Positions 9,192 through 53,718 of a DNA stretch of 64,000 nt are shown piece after piece. Both the position numbers and the translations under genes were made by a program. Under the pieces are notes generated by a model. That model was not told the DNA's origin. It did not search any database and saw nothing but the letters and a program-made list of their open reading frames with translations. Origin of the DNA: Absidia repens (lineage: Eukaryota > Mucoromycota > Mucoromycetes > Mucorales > Cunninghamellaceae); the NCBI GenBank assembly GCA_002105175.1, contig MCGE01000040.1:62001-126000 (forward strand), written 5' to 3'. The first letter of the stretch is position 1. The number at the start of each line of letters is the position of its first letter.

Positions 9192-9572
9192 TTAATAAGA
9201 CCGTAATGTCACTTCTTCATAACACATGAGCGCTCTGATACCATCTCGGCTTGGAGGAATGTACGTCAATTCTTTTGGTCCAAGATGGATATAAAGTTCG
9301 TCTGGATAGCGCTCGGAGCAGTTCACGTCGCCAAAGGTATAACATGAGTCATACGTCAAGGATGCTCCTGCTACCGCAGGGTAGTTGCCTGTGTTGAGAT
9401 ATGGAATACACGCACCTTTTTTGAATGGCACCCGGCTCTCCGAGCTTTGATATATCATCTGGATGTCACCACCCACAGCTGGATCCATGGAGAAACACGG
9501 TGCTGCCTTGACAACAAGTGTGGACAGAGTGACTGTCACTGCAAGAAAGAAGAGGACGGTGTTGTGGTTCAT
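9192..9572 (-). CDS. Small secreted four-cysteine protein (family A)
   Basis: An intronless 126-residue protein. Residues 1-23 form a signal peptide (MNHN, a hydrophobic core, then VKA-A). The mature part carries the superfamily framework: a GGDIQMIY strand, ACIPY, DSCYTFGDVNC and a C-terminal ALMCYEE. That is C-x(~22)-C-x(6)-C-x(~34)-C, plus one extra Cys near the mature N-terminus (APCFSMDP). MDPxVGGDIQ is shared with the gene at 11962-12357, so these two are close paralogs. A long (TA)n run at 9621-9648 lies just upstream and may hold the TATA element. Secretion is well supported; function is unknown and I recognise no named domain. Confidence 0.8.
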   Translation of the reverse strand: MNHNTVLFFLAVTVTLSTLVVKAAPCFSMDPAVGGDIQMIYQSSESRVPFKKGACIPYLNTGNYPAVAGASLTYDSCYTFGDVNCSERYPDELYIHLGPKELTYIPPSRDGIRALMCYEEVTLRSY

Positions 9573-10514
9573 TGTTTGTTTGATTTGGATAAAAAAAAAA
9601 GTGGGCCTTTTTTGTCAGCATAATTATATATATATATATATATATATTTGGAAGTCCCTGGCATTGAAGATGATTGTTTTTTGTTTTTGTTTTTTTGCGG
9701 GGATGGCATCAAATACATATCCCTTATTGCTTTAGACTAGTTCTACGCCTAAAGCTGTTTGCAGCACTCCATCCCTTCCCCTTTTTAACATGTTACGTAC
9801 AGCATTTTGCATACATCTACTGTATTTCTCTTTGTTTTTTTTTGCAGGTAGAAGGGACCGGGGTAAACAAAGAAAAAATGTATAAGGAGATAATAATCGT
9901 CACCTTGCAGCGGTCCAATTTTCTCAATTCATGTAATTCTTTCTTTTATATATATATATATATATATATACGTCCAACTAGTCAAGCAGTTTTCTATTCT
10001 TAGCGACCAGGGCCACCACTTTTTTCAACTTGAAAGAGTAACAAAAAAAAAAAAAAAAAAAAAAAAAAGAAGGTTCGCATACAGTGCTTAAAAGTTATAG
10101 ATTTGCGTGGTGACAAAAATAAAAAATAAAAATAAAGTGGTAAAGCAATAACATTTTATTTAGATAGAATAGCTATTCTACATACTAATGAAATGGTCAC
10201 TACTATATATGTAATCTACGGGGGTAGATGCTATTTCTATGCGATGCCTTCCAACTAAGTCATAAGGAGTCAAACCAGCAAGTTGTATAAGTTGTATCAA
10301 GCATCGGTATATAAAAAAATATCACCTGGCAATAGAAGCAAATTGTCAATCCTATAACGATCATCGCTTTGCGCAGTAACGTAGATTCCACCAGCGAGAT
10401 TGGTCCACTCATTCATTCCAGGTAATTCATTCCAGGTAGCTTGTCGATCAAATCAACTTACTGCCATATTCAAACGCCGACCATTTTTGAGTTTTCTGTT
10501 TATTTCGATGAGAT

Positions 10515-10745
10515 ATTGCTGTAATTGGATTAATGGTTAGAATATGAATTAGGGGAATCTTCCAAAAAAAAAAAAAATGCAATCTAAACATGCATGGAGA
10601 AACCCTTTCATTTTGGATGTAAGGATTTGAGAACCACCTACTATAGACTAGCCTTCATATTCAGAATAGTGTCAATAGGTTAGTGTAGTGTTAATTTCGC
10701 ATACTTTTATATCTACGTGAATAAATATTGTCTTGTTCCTTTACC
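10515..10745 (+). repeat. SINE-like repeat, copy 3
   Basis: TGGATTAATGGTTAG, AATTAGGGG, ACATGCATGGAGAAACCC, TTTCATTTTGGAT and a terminal GTGAATAAATATTGTCTT are in the family order. A 13-A insertion splits the GCATTTT box. Confidence 0.65.
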
Positions 10746-10775
10746 GTATGTATCTCTTATACCTATACCTGTTGA

Positions 10776-10779
<4 letters not shown>

Positions 10780-10854
<75 letters not shown>
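10780..10854. repeat. (AT)n-(GT)n compound microsatellite
   Basis: About 30 bp of perfect TA repeat passes directly into about 46 bp of GT repeat, followed 50 bp later by a ~28-bp poly(A) run (10903-10932). It immediately follows SINE-like copy 3. Alternating purine-pyrimidine tracts can adopt Z-DNA; no regulatory role can be claimed. Confidence 0.9.
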
Positions 10855-10857
<3 letters not shown>

Positions 10858-10903
10858 GATGCCTCCTTCAAAAATCAATTCACTCTCTAGTAAAGATATT
10901 TAC

Positions 10904-10934
<31 letters not shown>

Positions 10935-11022
10935 TAAGAGACGAAGTTACACCTTGACATGGAGGTATAGCTTTATTCCAAAAGACACTGTTATTGTCAG
11001 GTAACCTAGGATATATAATGTA

Positions 11023-11298
11023 CAGTGCCCTAACAAAGAAAATGCACACTTTTTGAGATACCGCTTGGAAGTAACCAGAACCGTAAAAATGAAAAGCGAT
11101 ATTGCTCCTACTTCTACGCTAGCTTTATGGTAGGCGATTGCATGTGCTTTTTGTATAGTTGTTAAAGCCATTGTTTGAGTAAAAAAGAAAATACCGTATA
11201 CGCGTAGAAGTAGGAGCAATATCGCTTTTCATTTTTACGGTTCTGGTTACTTCCAAGCGGTATCTTAAAAAGTGTGCATTTTCTTTGTTAGGGCACTG
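11023..11298. mobile_element. Palindromic MITE with 97-bp TIRs, TA-flanked (Tc1/mariner-type)
   Basis: The arms 11023-11119 and 11202-11298 are inverted copies that differ at one base in 97 by my reading, around an 82-bp spacer. The termini read CAGTGCCCTAACAAAG... and the element is bounded on both sides by TA (11021-11022 and 11299-11300). CAGT ends with a TA duplication are characteristic of Tc1/mariner elements (established knowledge). No transposase is encoded, so this is a non-autonomous MITE or foldback element. The near-identity of the arms suggests recent insertion or arm conversion. A transcript through it would form a long hairpin. Confidence 0.85.
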
Positions 11299-11794
11299 TA
11301 CTGTACTGTGCTGTATATCCAATCTACCATACCCGTCCTGTTTCTGTAAAAAATGTCTTCTTCCGACCCTGCGCCTGCGGCCACTGAGAAACATGTACCC
11401 TATCATACCTACCTAACCTCTTTTATTTCACACTCTACATATTGTATTGAAAAAATGCACCTTTCTCTTCTTTTCACTCAAGTGACACCAAAAACATGAT
11501 ATAATTTCAATTGTGTTTCTTATTTAACCGCTACTACTGCTTAACAGTATGTATCATAAAGCGTCATCCAATCAGCACCAGTTGAATCATTTTCCCGCTT
11601 CATTGACTTGGCTCTTGCGACTATAACCATCACTCATATACGAATGAAACCAGTCAACAATATTTTGTTTTTTAATACATATATATATATATATCCTCCC
11701 CGTTTCGACATGACAAACTAAACATAAAAGAGGCGCGATTAATCATCAACTTATGGTGAAAGATTCATCACCCTCTTCACTTCCGTTATAATAT

Positions 11795-11866
11795 AAGGCT
11801 TCAACAATTTTAACTTTTTTATTAGCGGACACACAAAACAATGTCCGATTCATATCATACTGCTTG
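11795..11866 (-). mobile_element. Fragment of the CGGACA TIR element
   Basis: Read on the minus strand it starts CAAGCAGTATGATATGAATC, then GGACATTG...TGTCCG, CTAATAAAAAAGT and TTGAAGCC. This matches the left end of the element at 25722-26309 (CAAGTGGTAATGAATCGGAC ... CTAATAAAAAGTG ... TTGAAGCG). The other end was not found. Confidence 0.55.
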
Positions 11867-11961
11867 TTTTTATCCTAAAGTCAATGAAAAGTAGTAACTT
11901 CCAATATATATATATATATATATATAATGCTATGTATCATCCTTGGCAGGCAATGATGTAT

Positions 11962-12357
11962 TTATCCAAAAATCGATTCTGTTTCTTCTTCATCAACGCA
12001 GGATAACGCTTGTACTCCACCTCTGGTGAGGTCATTGATGGGTGTCATTTGTGTTGTGGAAAGACGTTCCGTACCATACGAAGAATGGACAATGCGGCAG
12101 TTCACATCCTCGTAGAGAGTACACAAGCTAAATCTGACGGTCGTGGCTGCATTGATACGAGCATTGTTGTTGTTGTAATAAGGGATACAGGTCCCCGCTT
12201 TGAATGGCACACGCTGCGTTTGACCTCCGTAGATCACCTGGATGTCCCCACCCACAGAAGGATCCATGCCTGCCCCTGGTGCTGCCGCATTGGTGCCGGT
12301 GGAAAAGAACGCTGTTGCTGCAAGAAAGAAGAAGAGGAGGTTGGGGCTGGATTTCAT
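11962..12357 (-). CDS. Small secreted four-cysteine protein (family A)
   Basis: A 131-residue intronless protein with a clear signal peptide (MKSSPN, a Phe/Leu/Ala core, cut near GTNA-AA). The mature part shows GGDIQVIYGG, TCIPYY, SLCTLYEDVNC and a C-terminal ALSCVDEEE, the four-Cys superfamily framework with a 6-residue gap in the central C-C pair. I chose the ATG at 12357 because the signal peptide begins there and a TATATAAAT box lies about 54 nt upstream; the open frame continues for ~94 more codons, but that extension crosses the TATA box and homopolymers. It is closest to the gene at 9192-9572. Asn-rich NNNNAR follows the first Cys. Function unknown. Confidence 0.82.
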   Translation of the reverse strand: MKSSPNLLFFFLAATAFFSTGTNAAAPGAGMDPSVGGDIQVIYGGQTQRVPFKAGTCIPYYNNNNARINAATTVRFSLCTLYEDVNCRIVHSSYGTERLSTTQMTPINDLTRGGVQALSCVDEEETESIFG

Positions 12358-12403
12358 TTTGGATGTTTGAGATGATAAATGTGAATGGAACACTTTATTG
12401 CAA

Positions 12404-12420
12404 CCGGCGTATTTATATAT
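12404..12420 (-). promoter_or_regulatory. TATA box of the 12-kb secreted-protein gene
   Basis: On the minus strand the sequence reads GATATATAAATACG, about 54 nt upstream of the chosen ATG, which supports transcription starting within the ~30 nt before the coding region. Confidence 0.5.
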
Positions 12421-12497
12421 CTTTTTTTTTCGAATATCCAGCCCCCTCTTTCCCATCCCCCCTGAATCATAGTATCTTTTTTTTTTTTTTTTCCTTC

Positions 12498-12755
12498 TGC
12501 AAGGCAAGGAGGCAGAGAAAAATCCTAAACGGGGAGGGCGGGGGAACCAAGGGGTAAATAGAAAAGGAGGTGATATGTATATTACAGTAAAACGGTAATG
12601 TTGAACTATAAAGCGCTCCCATGTACAAAGGTTCTGCAAGGAGAGAGAGAGAGATAGAGAAAAATCCTGGGCAGAAATAAAGGGGCAATTACATATAAAA
12701 TGAGGCGATATGTATAGTAGAGTAGAAAGGCAACGTTGAACTATAAAACGATTAA
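12498..12755. repeat. Imperfect ~120-bp direct duplication
   Basis: TCTGCAAGG ... GAGAAAAATCCT ... GGGG ... GGYGATATGTATA ... GTTGAACTATAAARCG occurs at 12498-12615 and again at 12636-12750. The two halves differ by small indels. No coding potential seen. Confidence 0.55.
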
Positions 12756-12996
12756 TGAAATAAGGAGATAATTTACTGAAGATATATAGTGCTTTTTAAA
12801 AAAAAAAAAAAAAAAGTGTAGGGAAGTGGGGGACGTACTGATAAGCACGACATTCCGTAGGCGTAAAAGTCGTCAAGATAGATGCTGTACCTACAAGTCA
12901 ACCCACGTACATATGATACAAGCTTTTTTTTTCGAATTGGTTCGGAGGCCAAGAGAGGGCCTTGGGTAGAAAATATATTCGCACTCCGCCTCGCAT

Positions 12997-13263
12997 TTTT
13001 TTTTTTTTTTTTTGTAATGTGTCGTTTATTGAATAAAGACTTGGGCTCACGTCAAAACGAGCGGTGGCCAATAAATAAAATAAAATATAATATATAAAAA
13101 TGAAGAAGAGGGGGTGGTGCGGAAGAGCGAAAATCTAGAGGGTAGTAGTATCATACAGGAGGAGGGAGGTAAAACGTGAGGGCGCAATGAGGGAGAGATG
13201 AAAACAAGAGACAGGCGAGGGGGAGAGTTGTGTGAGAGGAGGAGAGGGGAGAAAGACTATATA

Positions 13264-13296
<33 letters not shown>

Positions 13297-14480
13297 TTTA
13301 TATTTTACTTTTTAGACTTACCATCAAAGATATCATTGGCCAGCAGACGATGTGGGGGCGTGGAAGGTGGAGAGGGTGCGGATGATCGAGGGGACAATAG
13401 TGGTGGGGCGAAGAGGACGGTTCTCAAAGACAAGAGCCCAGTGGGCGTTCCATATAGCATGGAGGGTGGACCCGAGGTATTGAAACCAGAGCGTTGTGGG
13501 GATGAGGGAGGGGGAGGGAGGAGGGCGGAGGAAAAGAAGAGAAAACCAGATGGTATCGGTGGAGAAAGGGATGGACGGGAAAAGGTGGGACCAAGAAGCT
13601 TGCCAGATAAGAGCTCGGATGGGGCAGTCCAGAGCCATGTGGCGGGTTGTTTGATAAAGGAGAGGGCAAGCAGGGCAGAAGGGAGATGGGAATTGGTGTG
13701 GCAGGAAAAAATGAAGTCGAGTGAGGGCGGGCCATTTGTTGAGGATCAGGCGATACCACACGTTGCGAGCCGTAGGAGTGAGTCGGATTTTCCAAAACCT
13801 TTTCCATTGCGTAGGGGGGATCGAAGGAGGGCCATATTGGATCGTGTGGCAAGATTGGTAGTGGAGTTGACGAATGGTGCGGCTAGACCAGCGAAGAGTT
13901 TTGATGTGATCCCATGTTTGCGAGGTGAGTGGTGGGGAGGGTGAGTGATCAGGTTCGTCCACGGGTGAGAGGGCGGCGGAAATGTGTTGATGGAATGGGA
14001 AGGAGGGGGAGGAAGTAAGGGTGGATCTTATCTGATTCAGATAGTAGCGACCTACAGGAAGATCAGGAGAAACAGTGGGTTGAGCCATCAGAGAGTTGGA
14101 GGAAGGGGACAAAGTAAAAAATCACGGCCTCGGAGGAACCTGTATTTGGGCTTGTGGAGCCAATGGGAGGAGGGGACCTGATATAAAAACCAAAGTGGGG
14201 CATCCAAACACATCGCTGAGGACCAAGATATTTTGATGGAATCTATGGATACAAAAGAGAGTAGGTGAGCAATGAGTAGAAAAGGAGAGTGGAAAGGGAG
14301 TCGGGTGCCTATTTTGAGGGGGGGAGGAGCAAAGAGAAAAAGGAGTTATGAGGAGGGGAGAGGGAATGAATGTACGCCTGCATCCAGAAAGATAGAGGGG
14401 AGGAGCGGGTTGTGAGGGGACGGAGGAGGAGAGGAAGCCATCTGGATTGGAGAGAGATTTGTTGGGCTTGTGGGTCGAAT
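12997..14480 (-). mobile_element. 5'-truncated LINE copy with 9-bp TSD
   Basis: On the minus strand the piece covers the last part of ORF2, the 3' UTR and a poly(A) tail (the T run at 12997-13012). A perfect direct repeat GCCTCGCAT at 12988-12996 and 14481-14489 marks the target-site duplication. The 5' break falls within ORF2: the first readable residues correspond to the DPQAQQISLQ segment at about 58485 of the full-length element. The 3' UTR ends GACGTGAGCCCAAGTCTTTA ... AACGACACATTAC-A(n), close to the tail at 4660-4832. Amino-acid identity to the full copy is only moderate, so it comes from a related but different lineage. Confidence 0.88.
13333..14112 (-). pseudogene. LINE ORF2 C-terminal remnant (zf-RVT-like region)
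   Basis: A 259-residue open frame without the endonuclease or reverse transcriptase core. Segments such as GPPSIPPTQW, RFWKIRLTPTARN, W-RLILNKWPALTRLHFF and STLHAIWNAHW align in order with the last ~290 residues of the intact ORF2 at 55823-59563. The C-x2-C and H-x(4)-C residues of the terminal zinc-binding region are kept (CPACPLLYQTTRHMALDC). It is a dead fragment, not a gene. Confidence 0.85.
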
Positions 14481-14554
14481 GCCTCGCATGATTTTTATTG
14501 TTCCCACTTTTCCCACTGTTTTTTTTTTTTTTGTCTTTTTTCCTTCAAAAAAAT

Positions 14555-14800
14555 CAACCTCATTGAAGCTCCGTTGAGGTAATGGAAAGCTTGGATTAGA
14601 GGTTAGAATGTGAATCAGGGGCATCTTGAAAATGCGAAACGAACATGCACGGGGAAGCTCTGTCTTTCTGAAATCGGGATGCCCACCATTAGATTAGTTT
14701 TCATCTTAGTTGGTGTTATTAGTGTAGCTTAGTGTTCAGTATGTCATAGGTTATCTATTTGAATAAAACGAATTGTTTTGTGTTCTACCATTAGTCTCTC
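14555..14800 (+). repeat. SINE-like repeat, copy 4
   Basis: TCAACCTCATTGAAG, TGGATTAGAGGTTAG, GTGAATCAGGGGCATCTT, ACATGCACGGGGAAGC and TTTGAATAAAACG follow the family order. It lies directly behind the truncated LINE. Confidence 0.65.
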
Positions 14801-15940
14801 TGTCATAAGTTCAGCTTGATATTTTTATCAGACCCCTATCGCTTCCCGTCCCGCCCCCTCATACTTTATATATTTGTGTGGGCAACATCCAGTAGATGAT
14901 CCTACTTGCATCAATAAAACAAGTCATTTAAAGAAAAACAGAAAAAGAGGATGGTCCAACATCCCTCCGTCCGTCTTATGCCACTAGGAACGGTATTTAT
15001 TTCAAATCCATCGTTACAATCCACTCACTCTTTAATGCTGAGATAGGGTGTGACAATGCGTGCGGGATCAGTGATCGCGATGAAGGTGATCTCAGTTTTT
15101 GTATGTATAGTAAAAATTCATGGGTAAATATAATATGAAATAAACTGAGGAAAAGGATGAGACACCAACATTTCGCAAAAGGTTATTATTGGGGTAATGG
15201 TCATTATTCTAAAGTTATACTGCTATGTACTATCATGGATATTTTGATCCCCCCCCATGTAGTCCCACAAAACTAAATCGTTATCCACATAACTGTCTCA
15301 GGATAGAACCAAGGTGACAGGTCACAAAAAAAAAAAAAAAAAAAAAACACGAAGGTAAAGCAAATGACAAGATTTTTTATTATTGTTAGTGATAGTGATA
15401 AGCCATTTTTGAATTTTGTATAGGTAGTAACGAAGTGAAGTTAACTTTCTGATATAACTTCACGTGTGTCTTGTATCAATTAGATAGAGTAAAAATTAGA
15501 TTTTCTTGGTTTTTTGATTTAATTTCTCTTGAATGTGTCAATACCTGCGCAAAGGAATCTGTGTGTGTAAAACAACTATTGCGGGGAATGAGTTTTTTAT
15601 ATATACTGTTTTGTCGTCTCCGCCATGTTACGCTTTGGTGGGAGAGTCCCTTGGCGGAACTAACCCACGTGCTCTACGGTCCTTCGACAAAAAAAAAAAA
15701 AAGCACGAAAACATTCATATATAGCGTGCATTGTGAGATAATCACTACTACTACCATCCACCATTCTTGTCATTCAACCGCCCTTCCTTCCCTCCTCTCT
15801 TCGCAGTACAAACAAAAAAAAATAGTCATCAATGACAGTACGAAAATATTCATGGCACCTTTCCTTCCCCTACCCCCCAAAAAAAGGACTAAAAAAAAAA
15901 GTGATATGGTTCAAATGATGTCTTTATTTTTTTTTTTTTT
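14801..15940. other. Intergenic, no supported gene
   Basis: Convergent 3' flank of the GTPase gene, with T/A runs (15326-15347, 15690-15703). Open frames are short, run through homopolymers and show no domain. Confidence 0.45.
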
Positions 15941-22197: not shown

Positions 22198-22521
22198 CTA
22201 GTCATTGCTTAATTCACACCGAATGCTTCCATATGGTGATATGGGAAAAAAGGAAAGGTCCACTGGCTCACTACCGAGCGGCAAGGGAGGTAAGTTTGTA
22301 AGGACACGGCATTCTCTTTCTCTGTAGAAATAGCACTCGAGAGGCCCAGAAGCAGAGATCTGCATGGGTAGCCGTCCGACCGCATTAACCTGGGGAAAAC
22401 ACTGTCCCACAGGTTGAGTTGTTGGTTGGGATTGCTCCGGATAGTAGACGAAGACGGATTGCGCACTGGCTATCGTCATGGTGGCTGCAATACATAGGGT
22501 GACGAGAATTGATTTTATCAT
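22198..22521 (-). CDS. Small secreted four-cysteine protein (MMKSI family, family B)
   Basis: A 107-residue intronless protein. The signal peptide MIKSILVTLCIAATMTIASA is followed by QSVFVYYPEQSQ. The four mature cysteines are at QCFPQ, LECYFYRERECRV and IRCELSND, spaced 23, 7 and about 33 residues. It is the inverted member of the set at 37186, 40507, 43095, 44351, 49681 and 53410, which share the signal peptide nearly letter for letter while the mature part varies. The ATG used is the one directly before the ATA-AAA-TCA codons. The promoter and CT-rich leader are conserved too. Confidence 0.83.
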   Translation of the reverse strand: MIKSILVTLCIAATMTIASAQSVFVYYPEQSQPTTQPVGQCFPQVNAVGRLPMQISASGPLECYFYRERECRVLTNLPPLPLGSEPVDLSFFPISPYGSIRCELSND

Positions 22522-23439: not shown

Positions 23440-23790
23440 GCTATTGGATGATCATTGTGTGCATTTGACCCGCTGCAGATGGTGGGTTGGGGGGAGGACT
23501 TGAAGGTAGACGATTTGGTTAGGTGTGAGTTGTGTAACTAGCTTGCTGGGCAACAATGGAGTGCCACATTCCTGGTCTTGGAAGTAGTAGCAAGTACCCG
23601 ATCTAGTGCTAGTGACAAACCGGGACGGTGATTTTTACCAGCCGGATCTAGAAACGCAATACATTTGTTGTAGGCATCTTACTTGACTGTTGGGTTAGGA
23701 TTGCTCTCATAAAGGAAAGATATGCCCCTGAACACTGACTGTCATCATCGTCGCTATCGTGCGTCATAGGAATGGGATTGATTTCATCAT
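23440..23790 (-). pseudogene. Disabled four-cysteine secreted-protein gene (family B2)
   Basis: The minus strand opens MMKSIPFL then meets TGA; relative to the copies at 48729 and 52083 a few bases are lost in the signal-peptide coding part. A second lesion, GTCAAG-TAA, corresponds to the stop shared by other B2 copies. Further on, the frame that reads DPAGK ... GTCYYFQDQEC ... TPNQ-VYLQV is still visible, so the ancestral gene had the same four-Cys layout. It was not rebuilt here. Confidence 0.72.
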
Positions 23791-23806
23791 AACAGTTGTC
23801 AAGTTC

Positions 23807-24496: not shown

Positions 24497-24859
24497 TCAT
24501 TTATACTTGTAGCACAAAATGGCTGGTCCAGGATCAACAGGAGCACGAATACGCAATACACGAGAATACATCACCATGAGTGGACCATTGACATCCACGT
24601 CTTTGCATTGGGTATCTTTGGTGAAATAACATGGGAAGGAATCATCGATACCATAACTGAAGGTGGCAGGGTTTCCTTTCTTGTTGATGTAAGGAATACA
24701 GTCTCTAGCCTTGAACGCCTGGGGTTTTGTTTCGGCGTTATACAGCACTTGGAAATCGCCGCCTTGCAGCTTTGGATCAGGAAAAACAACCCCAGCTGGT
24801 AGTTTTGCTGCTCCTGGTGGACCTTGTTGCGCAGCGCTGCTCAAGGTGCCAAGAATCAA
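24497..24859 (-). CDS. Small secreted four-cysteine protein, start codon unresolved
   Basis: The frame is open from the stop at 24497 back beyond 24880. The mature part carries GGDFQVLYNAE, DCIPYINK, FPCYFTKDTQC and a C-terminal AILCYKYK, matching the superfamily (23, 7 and ~33 residue spacing). Upstream of LSSAAQQ the frame reads STFLFSLLILGTLSSA, a good signal-peptide core, preceded by a Lys/Arg run from a 15-A tract. No ATG occurs in this frame between an upstream in-frame TAA (about 24958) and the core; coordinates start at an in-frame TTG. Possible explanations are a mutated start, an unseen upstream exon, an indel in the A tract, or non-AUG initiation. A TTAAATA box is present upstream. 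Confidence 0.6.
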   Translation of the reverse strand: MILGTLSSAAQQGPPGAAKLPAGVVFPDPKLQGGDFQVLYNAETKPQAFKARDCIPYINKKGNPATFSYGIDDSFPCYFTKDTQCKDVDVNGPLMVMYSRVLRIRAPVDPGPAILCYKYK

Positions 24860-26353: not shown

Positions 26354-26824
26354 CTATGGCACGGCGGGCGCTGGTTTTTCTTTCAAATGTTGGGGATGAT
26401 CCAAGATCGACTTCAATGTGACGGGATGACATACAAAGGACTGGCCGCCGACCGTGAAGAGGCCTAGGACATTATCGGTATCAACAGCGGGCGGCAACGG
26501 AAAGGTCACGGGCGCTTTGATCTGTGTACAAGTCGTGTCGGCATACGTGATACACGACGTCAGTTGTGCCGCCCTGCCCGAGGTAATAAGCTTGCCATCC
26601 TTTCTGGCTGGAAAACATTGGCCATAGGCGACATAGTCAGGCTGCGGATGGCCTTCGTAAGTAACCAACAGTGGAGGAGATCCATTCTGGTTTGGCACAG
26701 GAGGAGGAACATTCGATAAGATGTCGGTGACACCGCCGCCTTGCGATGGTCCCATGTTTCCATGTAAACCTTGGGCAGGACCTAGAGTCGTTGTCATGAC
26801 GAAGAACAACACCATCCATTTCAT
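26354..26824 (-). CDS. Small secreted four-cysteine protein, proline-rich variant
   Basis: A 156-residue intronless protein. Signal peptide MKWMVLFFVMTTTLGPAQG; a Gly/Pro-rich stretch follows (GPSQGGGVTD, PPPVPNQNGSPP). The conserved core is LLVTYEGHPQPD, GQCFPARK, TSCITYADTTC and SFVCHPVTLK. The first internal spacing matches the MMKSI family; the C-terminus is extended by about 20 residues rich in His, Lys and Pro. The ATG at 26824 was chosen because it starts the signal peptide; upstream in-frame sequence encodes a Glu run from a (GAG)n tract and is probably untranslated. Closest in layout to the gene at 29242-29931. Confidence 0.8.
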   Translation of the reverse strand: MKWMVLFFVMTTTLGPAQGLHGNMGPSQGGGVTDILSNVPPPVPNQNGSPPLLVTYEGHPQPDYVAYGQCFPARKDGKLITSGRAAQLTSCITYADTTCTQIKAPVTFPLPPAVDTDNVLGLFTVGGQSFVCHPVTLKSILDHPQHLKEKPAPAVP

Positions 26825-29241: not shown

Positions 29242-29931
29242 TTAAGGCACTGGCGGCAACACTGGGTCATCTTGCGAGGGGTTGAGGTTCTGTGGCAGGG
29301 TATCCAGCTTGACTTCATCACACGAATACGAGCCCACCAATTCTGAGCCAACCCCCAATACATTTTGCACATTGATACATGGCGCCAAAGGAATCGGCAC
29401 CTCATGCTGTAATTGTTGGCAAGCTTCGTCCGAATAGATCTTACATACGGAGGTCTTGGAGAATTTGGCAAAATTGACGCGTTTGGCCTGCTTGCGGAAC
29501 GGAATACATTGGTGAAATTGGACCATGTCGGGTGCCGGATTGTCGTTGTAATAGATCAAAATATCACTTTGCGGGCTGCCAGGGATGCCGGAGCCTTGTG
29601 CTGAACCTAGTGAACCTAGTGATAAAGGGTCATTTGCTTGTTGACCTTGACCAGCAGACGATGGTACTAAAGTTGATACGCCGCCCTGAACGATGCAACG
29701 GAGTTGGTCTTGCCCATGGCTTGTCTGAGGCCCCACGCCCGCCTGGTTGACGCCGGATGGAGGTTTTCCACGATTGCGTTGTCCACCACCGCCCAGCAAG
29801 CTTGGGAGGAGACCTGAAAGTGGGTCGCTGGAGGAGCCGGATGGCGGGTTTTCAGTGCGGCCAGATAGTGGCTGGGCACTGGTCGTCACTCCCATAACAG
29901 TCAATGCCAACAAAAATGGTGTCAATTTCAT
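29242..29931 (-). CDS. Secreted four-cysteine protein with long Gly/Ser/Gln linker
   Basis: A 229-residue intronless protein, the largest of the superfamily. Signal peptide MKLTPFLLALTVMGVTTSA-Q. Residues ~25-130 are low-complexity (PPSGSSSDPLSG, LLGGGGQRNRG, SAGQGQQAND) and contain one Cys (LRCIVQGG). The C-terminal ~100 residues are the family core: DILIYYNDNPAPD, HQCIPFRKQ, SVCKIYSDEAC and SYSCDEVK, plus an extra Cys in LAPCINV, six in all. The extra pair might form a fifth-sixth disulfide. The upstream start at 30291 was rejected because it has no signal peptide and crosses (AT)n. A TTAAATAG box lies ~80 nt upstream. Function unknown. Confidence 0.82.
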   Translation of the reverse strand: MKLTPFLLALTVMGVTTSAQPLSGRTENPPSGSSSDPLSGLLPSLLGGGGQRNRGKPPSGVNQAGVGPQTSHGQDQLRCIVQGGVSTLVPSSAGQGQQANDPLSLGSLGSAQGSGIPGSPQSDILIYYNDNPAPDMVQFHQCIPFRKQAKRVNFAKFSKTSVCKIYSDEACQQLQHEVPIPLAPCINVQNVLGVGSELVGSYSCDEVKLDTLPQNLNPSQDDPVLPPVP

Positions 29932-35909: not shown

Positions 35910-36230
35910 ATGAAACCATTCTTCGCATTCATCTTTTGTATGATGGCAACCGTCATGGTGGCATGTGCGCAATTCTTCCAAGTCGTTTATAATGAACAAG
36001 TCCCGCCAACGAACGTCTCATTGGCGCAATGTTTCCCCGTGATGGATGCCGGAGGTGTCTGGGCCCAACAGTTAGATACGTCGGTGCCAATCGTCTGTGC
36101 TTACTTTAACGACCCACAATGTCGCCAAATCCAACGCCAAGGTTTTTCAGTCTATGTGTATCCTCCAGGAAAAAAGATCATTCAAGGATCCGCTGTACCC
36201 TATCAAACCATGGCGTGTATCCGTCGTTAA
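35910..36230 (+). CDS. Small secreted four-cysteine protein (diverged family B member)
   Basis: A 106-residue intronless protein. Signal peptide MKPFFAFIFCMMATVMVACA-Q. Mature core FFQVVYNEQVPPTN, AQCFPVMDAGG, IVCAYFNDPQC and a C-terminal MACIRR: four mature cysteines with spacing 22, 7 and ~35. The CFP-x-(M/V)-(D/N)-A-(G/A)-G stretch ties it to the MMKSI family, while the signal peptide differs. The GTATAAAG box at about 35827 lies ~80 nt upstream. It heads the tandem array but is not itself inside a duplicated unit. A 50-T run follows 20 nt after the stop region. Confidence 0.83.
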   Translation: MKPFFAFIFCMMATVMVACAQFFQVVYNEQVPPTNVSLAQCFPVMDAGGVWAQQLDTSVPIVCAYFNDPQCRQIQRQGFSVYVYPPGKKIIQGSAVPYQTMACIRR

Positions 36231-37185: not shown

Positions 37186-37512
37186 ATGATGAAATCAATT
37201 TCCGTCATCTTATGTATTGCAGCCACCATGACGATAGCCAGTGCGCAATCCATCTTACTCGACTATCCGGGGCAATCTCAATCAACAACTCAACCTGCGG
37301 GACAGTGTTTTACTCTAGCTAATGCCGCCGAACAGCTACCCAGGCGGGCCGTTGCTTCGGAGCCTCTCGTATGCGAAGTTTACCAAGACGAAGAATGCTA
37401 TGTCCCTGAGTATGAATTACCTCAATTGTCGCTCACCGGTAATCCAACGGACCTTTCATCTTTGCGCATACCACAATATGGAAGCCTCCGCTGTCTACCC
37501 AGCCTTGGCTAG
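37186..37512 (+). CDS. Small secreted four-cysteine protein (MMKSI family)
   Basis: A 108-residue intronless protein: signal peptide MMKSISVILCIAATMTIASA, then QSILLDYPGQSQS. The cysteines are in GQCFTLANAAEQ, LVCEVYQDEEC and a C-terminal LRCLPSLG. The two adjacent ATGs (37186, 37189) are both usable. It differs from its nearest neighbour at 40507 mainly between the third and fourth cysteines. Its tail LPSLG replaces the usual acidic end. Confidence 0.85.
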   Translation: MMKSISVILCIAATMTIASAQSILLDYPGQSQSTTQPAGQCFTLANAAEQLPRRAVASEPLVCEVYQDEECYVPEYELPQLSLTGNPTDLSSLRIPQYGSLRCLPSLG

Positions 37513-39235: not shown

Positions 39236-39560
39236 ATGACATCGATCCTATTCGTATTTTGCATGATAGCGACGATGACGACGGTCACTGTTCAGGGCAT
39301 CCTTTTCCTTTATGAAAGCAACCCTAATCCAACAGCCATGGAAGATGTCTACAACAAATGTATTGCGTTTTCTAGATCCGGCTGGTAAAATCATCCTCGT
39401 TTGTCACTAGTACAAGATCAGACACCTGCTACTACCTCCAAGACAAGGAATGTAGCACACTCCATTGTCGCCCAGAGCGCTTGTCACACAACTCACACCT
39501 AACCAAATGGACTACCTTCAAGTTCCCCCAACCTACCACCTGCAGGTGGTTCAAATACTC
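39236..39560 (+). pseudogene. Disabled four-cysteine secreted-protein gene (family B2)
   Basis: The frame opens MTSILFVFCMIATMTTVTVQ and GILFLYESNPNPTAME, passes the first cysteine (NKCIAF) and then breaks at a TTTTCT run (one T more than in related copies), ending after 50 residues. The remaining segments (GTCYYLQDKEC and a C-terminal TTC) are readable in a shifted frame. It is the only B2 copy lacking the common AAG-TAA stop, so it is the least damaged. Confidence 0.75.
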
Positions 39561-40506: not shown

Positions 40507-40833
40507 ATGATGAAATCAATTCCTGTCATGTTATGTATTGCAGCCACCATGACGATTGCCAGTGCGCAATCCATCATACTTGACTACCCGGGGCAATCCC
40601 AATCAACAAGACAACGTGTGGCACAGTGTTTTCCCCTAGTTAATGCGGCCGGACAGCTGCCCAGGCAGGCCTCTGGTATTGGGGCTATTGACTGCTTTTT
40701 TTACAAAGACAGAGAATGCCGTGTCCCTACGACCGAAGTACTTGTCGTGCCGCTCGATAGATATCCAAAGAACCTTTCATCTTTGCCCATACCACCTAAT
40801 GGAAGCGTCCGGTGTGAATTAAGCTATGAATAG
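40507..40833 (+). CDS. Small secreted four-cysteine protein (MMKSI family)
   Basis: A 108-residue intronless protein: MMKSIPVMLCIAATMTIASA, then QSIILDYPGQSQSTRQ. The cysteines are in AQCFPLVNAAGQ, IDCFFYKDREC and VRCELSYE. The C-terminal LSSLPIPPNGSVRCE is nearly the same in the genes at 44351 and, less closely, 37186. It lies behind an ATGGCATCAAC block at 40079 and a conserved promoter. Confidence 0.85.
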   Translation: MMKSIPVMLCIAATMTIASAQSIILDYPGQSQSTRQRVAQCFPLVNAAGQLPRQASGIGAIDCFFYKDRECRVPTTEVLVVPLDRYPKNLSSLPIPPNGSVRCELSYE

Positions 40834-41824
40834 CAACACTTTTTTTATGTCCCTCCCCTCCTCCTCCGCTTCCGCTTTTTTCTTCTTCTTTTTGTCTGTG
40901 TGTCTGTGTGCTGAGAAGAATAAATATATTTTTTTTTTAAAAAAAAAAGGAGCTTTTGTGTTCTCTTTTTCAAGTTGACTTTATTGCTGTATTTGGTTAA
41001 TAGAAGGCAGCCAAGAATGCCTGGTTAAGTTGAGTGGGCGTGGTATGGAATGTTTTTTTGCTTGCTTGGATTCGTGACAAAAAGCCGGGTCAGAATTTTT
41101 ATTTTTTGAAAAATGATAATAATATTAATAATAATAATTTGTTGCCCGTTGCTCCCTATTCTACAAGTCAACCCCCCCCCCGCAAAAAAAAAGACCCTCC
41201 ATTTGTTATGTCACAATCACCATGATCTATAATATAAAAAAAAAGAAAAGGAGGGGGACGAGTGGGACGGGTAGCAAGAGATGAACATCACGTTGTTGGA
41301 AGTTGAATCAAAAAAATCGAAAAAAAAAGAATGAAGGCTGGGTTTGTTATGATTTCCAGATCGCAATGCATCCAACTGTATTGTACAGTATGTAATGTAG
41401 TACACACAAGGAGTCCATCTGAGCAGTGTGTTTTGCAACTTCTGGAACGAAAACCACTTTCCATCTCTATTTGTTTTGTGTTTATTTATGTCAGGGGTAG
41501 GATTATTTTTCTATAAAAAGTGAGCATAAACTGTGCATCTAACAAGAAAATAAGAATTGTTGAAGTAAGGGGGGGGGGGAAGGGCGTCCAGAAAATGCCT
41601 ACGTACTGAAATCTGCACACTGTTATGATGGCAAAATAATCATCTATTTACGGTAGAAGTTGAAACATCGGCATTTTTCTTGATCTTCCCCTCTGCCCCC
41701 CTTTTTTTAACTCCTCTCGACATAAATGCATGTAGGGCCGTATGTAAATGAAAGACTTTCTTTTTATTCTTTCGATTATCAACCTACTACTTCTATACAC
41801 ACACACAAGCACTTGACGACAGTT

Positions 41825-42150
41825 ATGGTGACATCGATTCCATTCCTATTATGCATGAGAACGATGATGATGCTGGCCAGTGCTCAGGGCACCCTTTTTC
41901 CTTTATGAGAGCAATCCTAATCCAACAGCCAAGTAAGATGCCTACAATTAATATATTGCGTTTCTAGATCCGGCTGGTAAACCACTCCGGCTTGTCACTA
42001 GCGCAAGATCGGGCACCTACTACTACATCCAAGTTAAGGAATGTGTCACTCCATTGTCGCCCAGAACGCTAGTCACACAACTTTCACCTAACCAAATGGT
42101 CTACCTTCAAGTCACCTAACCCACCACATGCAGGGGTCAAATGCACACAA
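41825..42150 (+). pseudogene. Disabled four-cysteine secreted-protein gene (family B2)
   Basis: Begins MVTSIPFLLCMRTMMMLASA-QG and is frameshifted within the LFLYE segment (one extra T at about 41893), stopping after 27 residues. The AAG-TAA lesion shared with other B2 copies follows, and the first cysteine codon is changed (AATTAATATATTG). The GTYYYIQVKEC segment has also lost a cysteine. Clearly non-functional. Confidence 0.78.
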
Positions 42151-43094: not shown

Positions 43095-43421
43095 ATGATG
43101 ATGAAATCAATTCCTGTCATCTTATGTATTGCAGCCTCCATGACGATAGCCAGTGCGCAATCCGTCTTTCTCTACTACCCGGAGCAACCCGAACCAACAC
43201 CTCAACCTGTGGGACCATGTTTTCTCCTAATGAATGCTGCCGGACAGCTACCTTATCATGCCACTGGTTCTGTGCCTCTCGACTGCTCTTTCCACCTAGA
43301 CACAAAATGCCGTGACGGTAAAAACAGACGTCCCTTGCCGATTGGCAGTGAGCCAATGGATATTTCATCGTTGCCCGAATCATCCTCTTTAAGCTTCCAG
43401 TGTAAATTAAGCTCTGACTAG
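43095..43421 (+). CDS. Small secreted four-cysteine protein (MMKSI family)
   Basis: A 108-residue intronless protein: MMMKSIPVILCIAASMTIASA, then QSVFLYYPEQPEPTPQ. The cysteines are in GPCFLLMNAAGQ, LDCSFHLDTKC and FQCKLSSD. Three consecutive ATGs open the frame. The central segment SFHLDTKCRDGKNRR is unusually basic for the family. The unit is short and has no B2 pseudogene before the next gene. Confidence 0.85.
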   Translation: MMMKSIPVILCIAASMTIASAQSVFLYYPEQPEPTPQPVGPCFLLMNAAGQLPYHATGSVPLDCSFHLDTKCRDGKNRRPLPIGSEPMDISSLPESSSLSFQCKLSSD

Positions 43422-44350: not shown

Positions 44351-44674
44351 ATGATGAAATCAATTCTCGTCACCTTATGTATTGCAGCCACTACGACAAT
44401 AGCCAGTGCACAATCCGTTTTTCTCTATTACCCGGGGCAATCCCAACCGACGACTCAACGTGTGGGACCATGTTTCCCTCTAGCTAATGCGGCCGGACAG
44501 CTACCCAGTCAGGCGTCTGGTACGGGGCCTATCGGCTGCTATTTTTTCGAAGACAGAGCATGCCGTGTCCCTGTAATCGAATTACCTGGCGTGCTGTTCG
44601 AGAGAGATCCCAAGAGCCTTTCATCTTTGGCCATACCACCAAATGGAAGCGTCCGGTGTGAAACAAGCTATTAA
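44351..44674 (+). CDS. Small secreted four-cysteine protein (MMKSI family)
   Basis: A 107-residue intronless protein: MMKSILVTLCIAATTTIASA, then QSVFLYYPGQSQPTTQ. The cysteines are in GPCFPLANAAGQ, IGCYFFEDRAC and VRCETSY. A (CT)n leader of about 30 nt lies directly before the ATG. The block holding this gene is duplicated around 53410-61100, whose MMKSI member is the divergent one. Confidence 0.85.
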   Translation: MMKSILVTLCIAATTTIASAQSVFLYYPGQSQPTTQRVGPCFPLANAAGQLPSQASGTGPIGCYFFEDRACRVPVIELPGVLFERDPKSLSSLAIPPNGSVRCETSY

Positions 44675-47482: not shown

Positions 47483-47522
<40 letters not shown>

Positions 47523-47880: not shown

Positions 47881-47884
47881 GTAA

Positions 47885-48250
47885 AAATGCCAGTCAGCCA
47901 AATTGAATCGAGCAGAGTCACTTACTACCCATCATTGGCATTTGCCAGATAACTCAGTCATCGTCTACCACCATCATCATCAAAACTAGACCCAACAACC
48001 GACCATTCCGTCGATTTTCATGATAGCAGTAGTTATATCCATTGCGTCGTTGCTGTCATTGTCATTGGTTTATCTGTCAAATACTTTGTCCAAGAACAGC
48101 TCCAATCAGGATATTCACAGCAAAATAAAACGGTACTGGGAGGTGTTGCAGAAAGTTTATATCTATATATATATAAAAAGGGACGCGTAGCGAGAGAGAA
48201 ATATAACGTTGTCGGAAGTTGAATCTAAAGAATTGAAAAAAAAAAAAGAA
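47885..48250 (+). pseudogene. Second remnant of the TM/coiled-coil protein gene
   Basis: The membrane segment (MIAVVISIASLLSLSLVYLS) runs in one frame into NTLSKNSSNQDIHSKIKRYW, then stops after a TATATA stretch. A TAG lies just upstream of the segment (HHHHQN-stop-TQQP). Shorter pieces of the same block are at 41230-41515 and 51590-51790. Confidence 0.35.
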
Positions 48251-48728
48251 TGAAGGTTGGGTTTGTTATGATTCCCCGGTGACACTGCATCCTACTGTAT
48301 TGTACTGTAGTACATACAAGGAATCTAGCCAAGCACTCTGTTTTGAAACTTCCGGAAAGAAAACTACTTTCCATCTCTATTTGTTTTGTGTTTATTTATG
48401 TCAGGGGTAAGATTACTTTTCTACAAAAAGTGAGCATAAACTGTGCATCTAAATAGAATATAAGAATTGTCGAAATAAGGGGAGGAAAGGGCGTCCAGAA
48501 AATGCCTACGTATTGAGATCTGCACAGAGTTATGACGGCAAAATAATCACCTATTGACGGTGGAAGTTGAAACATCGGCGTTTTTCTTGATCTTCCCCTC
48601 TCTCCCCCTTTTTTTTTAACTCCTCTCGACAGAAATGCAAGTTGGTCCGTATGTAAATGTAAGACTTTTTTTTTCGCTTATCAATCTACTACTTCTATAC
48701 ACACACACACAAGCACCTGACGACAGTT

Positions 48729-49075
48729 ATGATGAAATCGATCCCATTCCTATTATACCTGATAACGGCGATGGTGATGGCCAGTGTTCAGGGCGTCTCT
48801 TTCCCTTATGAGGGCATTCCTAACCCAAAAGCCAAGTAAGATGCCTAAAACAAATGTATTGTGTTTCTAGATCCTCCAGGTAGATCACCCCCCCGGTTTT
48901 TCTTTAGCACGAGATCGGGCACATGCTACTATATCCAAGAGATGGAATGTGTCACTCCATTGTAGTCCAGCGCGCTTGTCACACACCTCACACCTAACCA
49001 AATGGTCTACCTTCGAGTTCCCCCCGCAAACCACCACCTGCAGATGTCAAATGCGCATAATGATCATCCAATAGC
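48729..49075 (+). pseudogene. Disabled four-cysteine secreted-protein gene (family B2)
   Basis: An intact signal peptide region MMKSIPFLLYLITAMVMASV-QG is followed by SFPYEGIPNPKAK and TAA, 37 residues in all. Note that it opens MMKSI like the active family, which links the B2 and MMKSI groups. The rest of the ancestral gene (GTCYYIQEMEC and a C-terminal C) is readable beyond the stop but with further changes. Confidence 0.75.
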
Positions 49076-49680
49076 AAAAACATTCTTATCACACTTGGCG
49101 TCATGTAAGGTTGGTTGCACCGGTTATGATTTATTGGAATCTTCGCTCTGAAGTCTGTCTGATCCCTTTTTTTGGGAGGGGGACGGATGAAAACATGAAA
49201 AAAAAAACGACATATACGTAATTTTTTTCTTTTTTGTTTTCACCCATGGCATCAACATTATTCAATTAGTATTGTCAATATTAATCTAAGTGAGGTGTGC
49301 GCTCGGGAGAGGGGGCGGGGGTGGAGAAAGCTCAATATGGCGGATTGAAAGAAACACGAATTTGTAAATCCTACCATGATCAACTGGATACATGGAAAGC
49401 AGAGCATAAACTTAAGGACCCCCTTTCCTCCCAACTGCGATTCTTCTCATCTATACAAAGACAGAAGAGAAAAAAAAAATTCGGAAGGAGCGGGCGTTCA
49501 GGGATAATCAGGAGATGGATGAGATGTTCCTACAACCTTGACAAAAAAAAAAAAAAAAAAAGAAAAAAAAAGAGCTAGATAAAAGGGAAGATGATTAAAA
49601 GACCTCTTTTCTTTTCTTTCCTCCTCTACTATTATACACTCACATAAACCTTTCTTTCTCTCTATCTCTCTATTTCGACG

Positions 49681-50001
49681 ATGATGAAATCAATTTTCGT
49701 CATCTTATGTATTGCAGTCACCATGACGATAGCCGATCCGATATCCATCTTACTCTACTACCCTGGGCAACCCCAACCAATTAGCCAACCGGTGCCACAG
49801 TGTTTTCCCGTAGCTAATGCGGCCGGACAGCTACCCAAGCAGGCCTCCTCTAATTCTAGGAATCTCTTCTGCAGTTTCTACATGGATAAATTTTGCAATG
49901 GGATTTTAGCTAACGAGATGGTCAGGAAGAATCGAGTGGACCTTTCAAAGCTTCCCATATCATCATCTACATACGGCTTGTGTGAATTAAGCGATTACTA
50001 G
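49681..50001 (+). CDS. Small secreted four-cysteine protein (MMKSI family, divergent)
   Basis: A 106-residue intronless protein: MMKSIFVILCIAVTMTIA-D, then PISILLYYPGQPQPIS. The cysteines are in PQCFPVANAAGQ, LFCSFYMDKFC and GLCELSDY. The signal-peptide end ASAQ is replaced by ADP, and the stretch between cysteines three and four is basic (EMVRKNRVDLSK), setting it apart from its neighbours. The promoter and CT leader are kept. Confidence 0.84.
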   Translation: MMKSIFVILCIAVTMTIADPISILLYYPGQPQPISQPVPQCFPVANAAGQLPKQASSNSRNLFCSFYMDKFCNGILANEMVRKNRVDLSKLPISSSTYGLCELSDY

Positions 50002-50485
50002 CAACGCTTTTTTTTTTTTTGTCTCTCTCCCCCTTCCTCTTCCGCTTTTTTCTTCTTCTTTTGTCTGTGTATGTCTGTGTGCTGAAAAGAATAAATATAA
50101 TTTTTTTTAAAAAAATGAGGTTTTTTGTTCTCTTTTTTCAAGTTGACTTTTATTTCTGTAATTGGTTAATAGAAGACAGCCAAGAGTGCCTGGGAAGGGG
50201 GGGGGAGGGAGTGGTATGGATTTTTTTTTTTTTTTTTTTTCCGAGAAGGTGCTTAATTCAGTACCACCTTTGAGTCAATGTGGTCAAGCGGGGTAGGACG
50301 TTGGTTGACATGATAAACACCCCAAAATAAAACAAATAATAATAATAGCAATAATAATAATAAAGGAACATCTCTAACAGGTATCCTTGGATACGTAAAT
50401 TTAAACTAGGATGTGATGGAGGGAGGGTTGGGTCTAAAATAAGTTGGAGAGTGATCATTTCTGGATAATGACAACCATTATAAAA

Positions 50486-51590
50486 GGGAATTGCTCCATT
50501 TCAGAGGATTTTTCAGAGACCGTCCCGTACCACCTTTATTCTATCGCCGATAACTATCAGTTTAAACAAGCTTTGTGACATTAGCGATGTAAAAAATTGG
50601 CATTGTTTATTCAATAGAGTAATGCTTTAAAAAAATAAAAATAAAAATCATGATTATCATTTTCGTTTTGGAATGAAATTTGTTTGGCATATATTTTCCT
50701 CATGACGGACTTTTTGGTAATAGTGCTTGATGATCGTTTTTGTCTTAGTGGCTGTTAGTGGTGGTGTTGCCTCTTGATAAAGATGGGTTACTAGTAAAGG
50801 TGTAGGTGGTGATGGTGCTAAATTTGATATTGAAGGAGGAGGCGGTAGAACTGATGGAAAAGTTTATGTTTCTATTGGTGATTCCAGCGTAGACGGTGGT
50901 GGTTATAATGGTTTTTTAGACAGATCTTGCAATAGACGTTTTTAGAGTTCTGATAATTGGTATCGTTCAGGTGAGTCAATCTGTTGATAAAAAGGAAGCA
51001 TATATGCTGTTTGTCATTTTCCCATCCAAACTGAAAAATTCCAAGTCGACCATCCTTTTGTGCCTATCATCTACTTTGTAAACTTTGTCGCCAATTTACA
51101 TGTTCGTGTAAAAATGCCAACTAGTAGGTTCCATAGCCATGATCCGACCAGGAATCATGTAATCTTGTTCTAAGAAACTGTCCTTAATTATAATTTTTAT
51201 AAAATAATTGCGTTGATCATTGTTGTCGTTGCTGTTCATATTATCGGATACAGTCAGAAGTAGTGTTTCATTGCAATACGTGTATTCGGTAAAATAAATC
51301 TTCAACGAGAGGGTCAATGCTTTACATCGTCGACCATACTCCTTGGTAAGGATAGATTTCTCCAATTGGAAGATGGATAATCATAACAGATAGAAACGAT
51401 AGCGCTTCAAATAATATGGCAAAAAGAAATAAAGAAGTAAGTGTCAATTTCTTTTTTATTGCTATTGTCACAAAGCTTGTTTAAACTGGTAGTTATCAGC
51501 GATACAATAAAGGTGGTACGGGACGATCTCTGAAAAATCCTCTGAAATTCCTCTGAAGCCTCTGAAAATCCTCTGAAATGGAGCAATCCC
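50486..51590. mobile_element. 1.1-kb TIR DNA element within the array
   Basis: The left end GGGAATTGCTCCATTTCAGA ... (50486-50587) and right end (51462-51590) are inverted copies of ~100 bp. They share TTTTTCAGAGA-CGTCCCG, TACCACCTTTATT and GTTTAAACAAGCTTTGTGAC. The right end has an extra ~30 bp of CCTCTGAAA-type subterminal repeats (five copies). The interior holds an 89-residue minus-strand frame (51365-51096) without a known domain, so it is non-autonomous or decayed. The left flank belongs to the 45.2-kb block and the right flank to the TM-remnant block, so no target duplication is visible. Confidence 0.72.
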
Positions 51591-52082
51591 CCCAAAAAAG
51601 AATGAAGGTTAGGTTTGTTATGATTTCCCGATGACAATGAATCCTACTGTATTGTACTGTAGTACACACAAGGAGTCCATCCGAGCAGTGTGTTTTGCAA
51701 CTTCTGGAACGAAAACCACTTTCCATCTCTATTTGTTTTGTGTTTCTTTTTTCAGGGGTAGGATTATTTTTCTATAAAAAGTGAGCATAAACTGTGCATC
51801 TAACAAGAAAATAAGAATTGTTGAAGTAAGGGGGGGGGAGGGCGTCCAGAAAATGCCTACGTACTGAGATCTGCACACTGTTATGATGGCAAAATAATCA
51901 TCTATTTACGGTAGAAGTTGAAACATCGGCATTTTTCTTGATCTTCCCCTCTGCCCCCCTTTTTTTAACTCCTCTCGACATAAATGCAAGTAGGGCCGTA
52001 TGTAAATGAAAGACTTTCTTTTTATTCTTTCGATTATCAACCTACTACTTCTATACACACACACAAGCACTTGACGACAGTT

Positions 52083-52420
52083 ATGGTGACATCGATTCCA
52101 TTCCTATTATACCTGATAACGACGATGATGATGGCCAGTGTTCAGGGCATCTCTTTTCTTTATGAGAGCAGTCCAAATCCAACAGCCACGTAAGATGCCT
52201 AACAACAAATGTATTGCATTTTCTAGATCCGACTGGTAAATCACCCCCGGCTTGTCACTAGCACGAGATCGGGCACCTGCTACTACTTCCAAGACAAGGA
52301 ATGTGTCACTCCATTGTGGCCCAGCACGCAAGTCACATAACTCACACCTAACCAAATGGTCTACCTTCAAGTCCTCCAATCCACCACCTGCAGGGGCCAA
52401 ATGCACACAATGATCATCCA
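52083..52420 (+). pseudogene. Disabled four-cysteine secreted-protein gene (family B2)
   Basis: MVTSIPFLLYLITTMMMASV-QG, then SFLYESSPNPTAT and TAA (the common lesion, here ACG-TAA). Downstream, GKSPRLVTSTRSGTCYYFQD and KECVTPL are intact in another frame. This copy shows best what the B2 protein looked like. Confidence 0.76.
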
Positions 52421-53213
52421 ATAGCAAAAAACATACTTATCACACTTGGTGTCCTGTAGTGTTGGTTGCTCTGGTTATAATTTATTGGAATCACCGCTCT
52501 GAAGTCTGTCTGATCCTTTTTTTGGGTTGGGGGGCGGATGAAAACAGAAAATGAAATGAATAAACAAAACGCTTCCACCATCGTCTTTTTTTACGGTCCT
52601 TAAGAAAATTTATTGAGGTTTAGAATTTTTTTTTTCTTTTTTTTAATAAAAAAAATAAATAAACGTTTTTAGCGTTCAAAGGTGGTCAGTGTTTGGGGAC
52701 AACTTGACTGGGTGGAGGGAGGGGAGCCACGACATTGAAATGATCCTAGACAGGATGGGTGGGCGGGGGGTATCAATCTAAAGTGGATCGGCAGGAGGAT
52801 AATTTCAGGATGATGGGAATTGCTTGAAAAGAAAAATTGACATACGCAAAGCAGTATTTCAAAAACCAATGCTAAAGAAGGACAGGGCAGTTAAAAAAAA
52901 AGGCATATACAATTTTTTTTCACCCATGGCATCAACATTCAACAGATATCGTCAATATTAATCTAAGTGAGGTATGTGTGCGGGAGGGAGAGGCGTGGAG
53001 AAAGCTCAATGTGGCGGACTGAAACAAACACGAATTTGTGAATCCTACCATGATCGACTGGATACATGGAAGTCAGAGCATGAACTTAAGAACCCCCCTC
53101 CGCCAACGTGGATTCTTCTCATCTTTACAATGACAAAAAAAGGAAAAAAAATAAGGGAGGAGCGGGCGTTCAGGGATAATCAGGGGATGGGTGAGGTGTT
53201 CCTACAAATCTTG

Positions 53214-53253
<40 letters not shown>
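53214..53253. repeat. Poly(A) tract of ~40 bases
   Basis: It replaces the short A run found at the same point of the other array promoters, just upstream of the TATATAAAGG box. Confidence 0.9.
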
Positions 53254-53257
<4 letters not shown>

Positions 53258-53409
53258 TTAAAAAAAGATGTAGATATAAAGGAAGTTGAATAAAAGGGGG
53301 GATTTTTTTTCTTTCTTCCTCTACTATTATATATTAACATAAACCTTTCTCTCTCTCTCTCTATCTCTCTCTCTCTCTCTCTTTCTCTCTCGCTCGCTCC
53401 CTTTTGACG

Positions 53410-53718
53410 ATGATGAAATCAATTCTCGGCCTCTTATGTATTGCAGCCACCATGACGATAGCCAATCCGACAACCGTCTCTCTCTACTACCCGGGGCAAT
53501 CCCAACCAACAATTCAACCTCTGGAAAAGTGCTTTACTGTAGCTAATGCGGCCGGACAGCTACCCACGAAGGCCACTGCTTCTGGTTTTGCCGAATGCGC
53601 TGTCTACATAGACAGAGAATGCGGTAACTTGCCAAACCCATACATTCATTTCGATGTCGGTCCTTCATTTGGTGTAACGGACGTTAAAAATATCGCTTGC
53701 CACCATCTCAATACATGA
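53410..53718 (+). CDS. Small secreted four-cysteine protein (MMKSI family, divergent)
   Basis: A 102-residue intronless protein: MMKSILGLLCIAATMTIA-N, then PTTVSLYYPGQSQPTI. The cysteines are in EKCFTVANAAGQ, AECAVYIDREC and a C-terminal IACHHLNT. The last third (NPYIHFDVGPSFGVTDVKN) has no match to the other MMKSI proteins although the signal peptide and 5' flank do, so this end was replaced or diverged quickly. A (CT)n leader of ~50 nt precedes it. Confidence 0.83.
   Translation: MMKSILGLLCIAATMTIANPTTVSLYYPGQSQPTIQPLEKCFTVANAAGQLPTKATASGFAECAVYIDRECGNLPNPYIHFDVGPSFGVTDVKNIACHHLNT

Follow-up and report, generated by a model that had tools for sequence, protein, structure and literature searches.

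The window analyzed here, 64,000 nucleotides of contig MCGE01000040.1 of Absidia repens (Mucorales, Cunninghamellaceae; forward-strand positions 62,001 to 126,000), carries an array of small genes from a genome-wide family of four-cysteine proteins. By predicted fold, the family is built as a crystallin-scaffold secreted protein. We see about an even chance that these proteins are fungal antagonists or recognition factors that diverge with a target or competitor. If so, they would leave the cell with the crystallin-like fold as a rigid scaffold, loops on the scaffold would bind something outside the cell, and the copies would have diverged as the target or competitor changed. The likeliest job would be antagonism or recognition between fungi, either toxin-like or inhibitor-like. 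We favor such an extracellular role because fungi are known to use the crystallin fold as a scaffold for secreted proteins; likeness of fold alone does not establish function.

A four-cysteine family in the window

The original prediction placed 13 genes in the array, and the sequence read at every one of these loci contains the family (positions are those of the window):

9192..9572, minus strand: 126 amino acids; groups with 11962 and 24497
11962..12357, minus strand: 131 amino acids; source of structure model 1
22198..22521, minus strand: subfamily I, 107 amino acids
24497..24889, minus strand: open frame without an in-frame ATG
26354..26824, minus strand: 156 amino acids; a linker separates signal and domain
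29242..29931, minus strand: 229 amino acids; domain preceded by a long Gly/Pro/Ser-rich linker
35910..36230, plus strand: 106 amino acids; long branch in the tree
37186..37512, plus strand: subfamily I
40507..40833, plus strand: subfamily I
43095..43421, plus strand: subfamily I
44351..44674, plus strand: subfamily I; source of structure model 2
49681..50001, plus strand: subfamily I; see below for its hairpin
53410..53718, plus strand: subfamily I

The frame at 24497 is present but doubtful as a gene: either its first exon went undetected or the frame is start-less. The proposed common framework holds in all 13 members, which share an invariant tyrosine at the end of the N-terminal strand and four invariant cysteines spaced C-x(20-22)-C-x7-C-x(25-32)-C. 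The middle cysteines, described as x(6-7) apart, are always separated by x7, and the x6 variant was never found. The C-(I/F)-P motif is present in 10 members and is replaced by C-F-T or C-F-L in 37186, 43095 and 53410. The aspartate of C-x-x-Y-x-D-x-x-C is kept in 12 of the 13. Chance frames are ruled out as an explanation: 13 stop-free segments of the real window match Y-x(12-15)-C-x(19-22)-C-x7-C-x(24-33)-C, against a mean of 0.01 and a maximum of 1 in 100 simulated first-order Markov windows.

The signal peptides attributed to the family are matched by a hydrophobic start in all 29 members first collected from the genome (see below), as judged by hydropathy only (12-residue window of at least 1.9 near the start). 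This suggests that the proteins are secreted. An L-x-x-R-Q stretch, which could be a processing site, precedes the linker in three linker-type members on other contigs (C40:24329, C29:224998 and C26:389814; contigs are abbreviated as C and a number).

The family is joined by more than its signal peptides. We compared profiles of the mature parts, from which signal peptides and linkers had been removed, using eight window proteins (profile A3) and the remaining five (profile A4). Over 52 columns, the two profiles matched in hhalign with a probability of 95.8 (P 7.4e-9). Shuffling A4 100 times, with the cysteines fixed and the other columns permuted between them, gave scores that averaged 12.6 and peaked at 27.2; no shuffle reached the observed 49.75. 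Because the mature match beats the shuffles, the window proteins share more than cysteine spacing and a signal peptide, and a family held together by the signal peptide alone is excluded. These results support the earlier reading of one diverged superfamily.

The same prediction recognized no named domain. This holds for Pfam, where a scan of 10 of the 13 window members at E up to 1 returned no named domain and no crystallin profile, and two weak stray matches lay far below the cut-off; it does not hold for the fold, which is recognizable. Nor did a crystallin profile match four further proteins at E up to 5 or five proteins at E up to 10 (one protein is in both sets). Stray profile matches, in one member each, were to CATSPERB_C (E 0.0026) and SBSPON_C (E 0.049).

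The predicted crystallin-like fold and its relatives

Structure models were obtained for one protein on each side of the family. Model 1 (11962) had a predicted local distance difference test (pLDDT) score of 87.4 from an alignment of all 13 members, and model 2 (44351) scored 90.6 from the eight rows of its own side, with the side of model 1 excluded. The two models share seven strands and their order, which argues against unrelated folds. The predicted fold is a two-Greek-key beta-sandwich domain of 80-90 residues. The top-ranked PDB structure by Z score was APP for both models (5.9 for model 1 and 7.0 for model 2), and WmKT (5.8 and 6.5) joined it within the four best rows of each. Among the matches listed, 36 of 50 for model 1 and 39 of 50 for model 2 have crystallin in their title, with Foldseek probabilities of up to 0.99 and 1.00, respectively. 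Each protein is thus predicted to carry one disulfide-locked domain with a beta-gamma-crystallin-like fold of two Greek keys. By analogy with crystallin topology, Cys1 would pair with Cys4 and Cys2 with Cys3, all within one sheet.

Classical beta-gamma-crystallins (PF00030) carry a signature in each Greek key, an aromatic residue followed by glycine seven places later ((F/Y/W)-x6-G). The likeness of the Absidia family to this group lies in the predicted fold and in the aromatic residue of the hairpin at C-x-x-Y-x4-C, present in 33 of the 35 members read, whereas the signature glycine is found in only 6 of the 35. The six holders of aromatic-x6-Gly are 49681, the sole one among the 13 window members, and all five members read from a branch on contigs C30, C29, C39, C26 and C33. 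The profile of this branch (A7) matches A4 (P 2.7e-9) and, more weakly, A3 (P 3.2e-4). We do not file the family under the classical group because both the signature and the profile tests fail. An internal duplication of the two Greek keys found no support, the halves failing to align together (P 0.17). Profiles A2 and A5 had no matches among PDB chain sequences at E up to 10.

APP is the Abundant Perithecial Protein of Neurospora crassa (PDB 5Z6E and 5Z6D), whose entry title includes Ca2+. Calcium-binding beta-gamma-crystallins have the motif (N/D)(N/D)xx(S/T)S, which is absent from all 29 members collected first. WmKT, or HM-1, is the killer toxin of Cyberlindnera (Williopsis) mrakii (PDB 1WKT). 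It resembles the Absidia proteins as a secreted single crystallin-fold domain, to the extent that their fold is predicted and their secretion indicated by hydropathy. WmKT has more than four cysteines and no sequence match to the family, which in A. repens counts dozens of genes with four domain cysteines each. HM-1 binds a wall mannoprotein and inhibits beta-1,3-glucan synthase, according to excerpts of PMC12715866.

Other structure matches could point to a protective rather than lethal role as inhibitors or lectins, in which the crystallin-fold domains would bind proteases or the polysaccharides of walls. Among the matches listed are GH29 fucosidases (hit near their C-terminal end), a complex of X409 with a Tn-glycopeptide and, for model 1, a Streptomyces antifungal protein. 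We consider this role improbable; the alignments show no conserved surface motif beyond the tyrosine, aspartate and cysteines.

Secreted crystallin-fold proteins are known from Ascomycota through structure comparison, as excerpts of PMC10462633 describe. In Pezizomycotina, the crystallin/WmKT-fold orphan candidate effectors presented there are, like the Absidia proteins, secreted, shorter than 300 amino acids, without a Pfam domain and of the same fold class, with a conserved core and diverged sequence. Among the orphan candidate effectors of 20 Pezizomycotina species, this fold belongs to a set of 18 families that each occur in >80% of the species (PMC10462633, in part), which would suit effectors aimed at a host or prey (plant, animal, alga or mycoparasitized fungus) rather than at competitors. 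Such targets seem improbable too for A. repens, whose papers, as excerpted, concern soil, leaf litter and old wood among others and give no host link there. Our search of the open-licence literature found no report of such a family for Absidia or Mucoromycota.

Genome-wide extent and duplication

The family is genome-wide and larger than the window set. Searches of the assembly with single proteins recovered 29 members, all read: 14 on C35 (13 of them in the window), six on C46, three on C26 and one each on C14, C57, C67, C40, C29 and C1. A further 14 open loci came from two later queries (C14:496801, four on C30, two on C39, five on C29 and one each on C26 and C33). Six of these were read, and all have four cysteines and the x7 middle, with a first gap of 29 in the C33 member; the remaining eight were assigned by search score (E 3.9e-62 to 6.5e-4). 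The total is at least 43 open loci, 24497 included, on 12 contigs (C1, C14, C26, C29, C30, C33, C35, C39, C40, C46, C57 and C67). Outside this count are C33:156392, which has two stops, and the unread C16:190453 (E 0.055). A candidate at C3:202319 was rejected since it lies in an unrelated gene, presumably a nitrilase. Scanning the genome for a loose DNA pattern proved uninformative, with 209 matches versus 141 in a reversed control.

Four of the family proteins are deposited as hypothetical proteins of A. repens. A profile search of 5.8 billion proteins first returned nine proteins, all from the window's own contig, and a later one returned four from A. repens, one from A. cylindrospora (P0013) and P0014. 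Only P0013 and P0014 were found beyond A. repens, and absence elsewhere is undemonstrated by this method, which requires shared five-residue words. Both fall near the C1 member in the tree. The old origin and diversification proposed for the array fit the clusters elsewhere in the genome and the one relative conserved in A. cylindrospora. The C1 member, being conserved, makes a natural contrast to the fast clusters. A viral origin was rejected; matches were weak (best E 0.055), and one of them was to a giant-virus protein named as a Greek-key crystallin.

A wider claim can be made tentatively, although we think it doubtful: that A. repens has dozens of killer-toxin-like proteins with a crystallin fold, a repertoire for the most part its own, which multiplied in several separate clusters, was driven apart by selection and forms a Mucorales system serving antagonism or self/non-self recognition and invisible to sequence searches. 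A family of about 40 genes, with no Pfam match where scanned and one cluster with excess amino-acid change, makes it testable whether early-diverging molds maintain repertoires for toxicity or recognition as yeasts and plant pathogens do.

Segmental and local duplication multiplied the family. The genes of subfamily I form repeats together with their flanks, one unit being inverted; in stretches pre-cut to 1.3-2.8 kb, matches extend to 2.1 kb, with 72 to 87% identity in the longer ones. In Pezizomycotina, segmental duplication is suggested not to be a major contributor (excerpts of PMC10462633), whereas in A. repens it made at least subfamily I. The five dead copies proposed for the array were all located:

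about 23458-23793, minus strand: dead copy beside 22198
39236..39537, plus strand: dead copy beside 40507
41822..42092, plus strand: dead copy beside 43095
48726..49054, plus strand: dead copy beside 49681
52080..52404, plus strand: dead copy beside 53410

In five of the seven subfamily I units, a dead gene lies upstream of its living neighbor at a distance of 0.95 to 1.33 kb. An alignment of the five has stop triplets at three identical columns in every copy, but in different frames. In the reading frame set by the start-codon position, the dead copies next to 22198, 40507 and 43095 have one stop in common. Those next to 22198 and 43095 share two more, those next to 40507 and 43095 share one, and those next to 49681 and 53410 share two; no stop occurs in all five. 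Because in-frame stops are shared, some dead copies were duplicated from an already broken gene. The deaths were therefore fewer than the dead copies, though a single death is not demonstrated. The living gene 35910 was considered as a candidate living form of the dead copies: its distance ahead of 37186 is about that between most dead copies and the genes downstream of them, yet its DNA does not align with theirs.

Selection, rival roles and neighboring elements

One cluster, the six genes on C46, has an excess of amino-acid change. In the mature part, the proportions of nonsynonymous (pN) and synonymous (pS) differences are 0.315 and 0.164, giving a ratio of nonsynonymous to synonymous divergence (dN/dS) of 2.21 (codon bootstrap 1.55 to 3.25). 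These selection figures come from simple counting without site models, and the pooled bootstrap takes no account of the tree. The ratio exceeds 1.4 in each of the 15 pairs, and three pairs without a common gene together have 203.5 replacement changes at 606 sites versus 26.5 silent changes at 171 sites (P 2e-5). Divergence on C46 is 0.126 to 0.189 in the near flanks, 0.200 in the signal part, 0.281 in the mature part and 0.344 in the farther 3' flank. The replacement excess, together with near flanks that differ less than the mature coding part and the wide spread of isoelectric points given below, favors the proposed arms race with a changing target or competitor. Subfamily I of the window diverges by 0.110 in the signal part, 0.202 and 0.235 in the near flanks, 0.329 in the mature part and 0.313 and 0.439 in the farther flanks. 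Its dN/dS is 1.13 (0.83-1.54), which relaxed constraint fits as well as mixed selection does. The C26 pair has a dN/dS of 1.03.

These ratios bear on a developmental or wall role, in which the proteins would be packed into or on spores, sporangia or zygospores and their diversity would be mostly drift after duplication. APP, the top Z row for both models, is named for perithecia, the dN/dS of subfamily I is near 1, and the linker members might attach to the wall. Yet the C46 ratio of 2.2 speaks against drift, charge varies widely, and it is not obvious why a structural protein should require dozens of divergent genes. We regard this role as unlikely. The isoelectric points of the 29 domains (4.2 to 9.6) also contradict simple cationic antimicrobial peptides.

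The end of one deposited protein (P0010) differs from the open frame at C46:120726-121046 just after the last cysteine. Small genes of the family may be misannotated. A 24-base TTAGGG telomere repeat, sought as a marker of subtelomeric placing, had no exact match in the 47.4-Mb assembly.

Within the window, genes with the HET (heterokaryon incompatibility) domain flank the array at 5405-7222 (minus strand) and 61707-63626 (plus strand), which may simply reflect how common such genes are. A LINE-like (long interspersed nuclear element) sequence at 54336-59563 (plus strand) has zinc-knuckle, endonuclease and reverse transcriptase frames; by eye, a frame at 13333-14088 (minus strand) resembles the end of its reverse transcriptase frame. 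An inverted repeat at 11020-11119 and 11202-11301 has 100-base arms, 99% complementary, with 82 bases between them.
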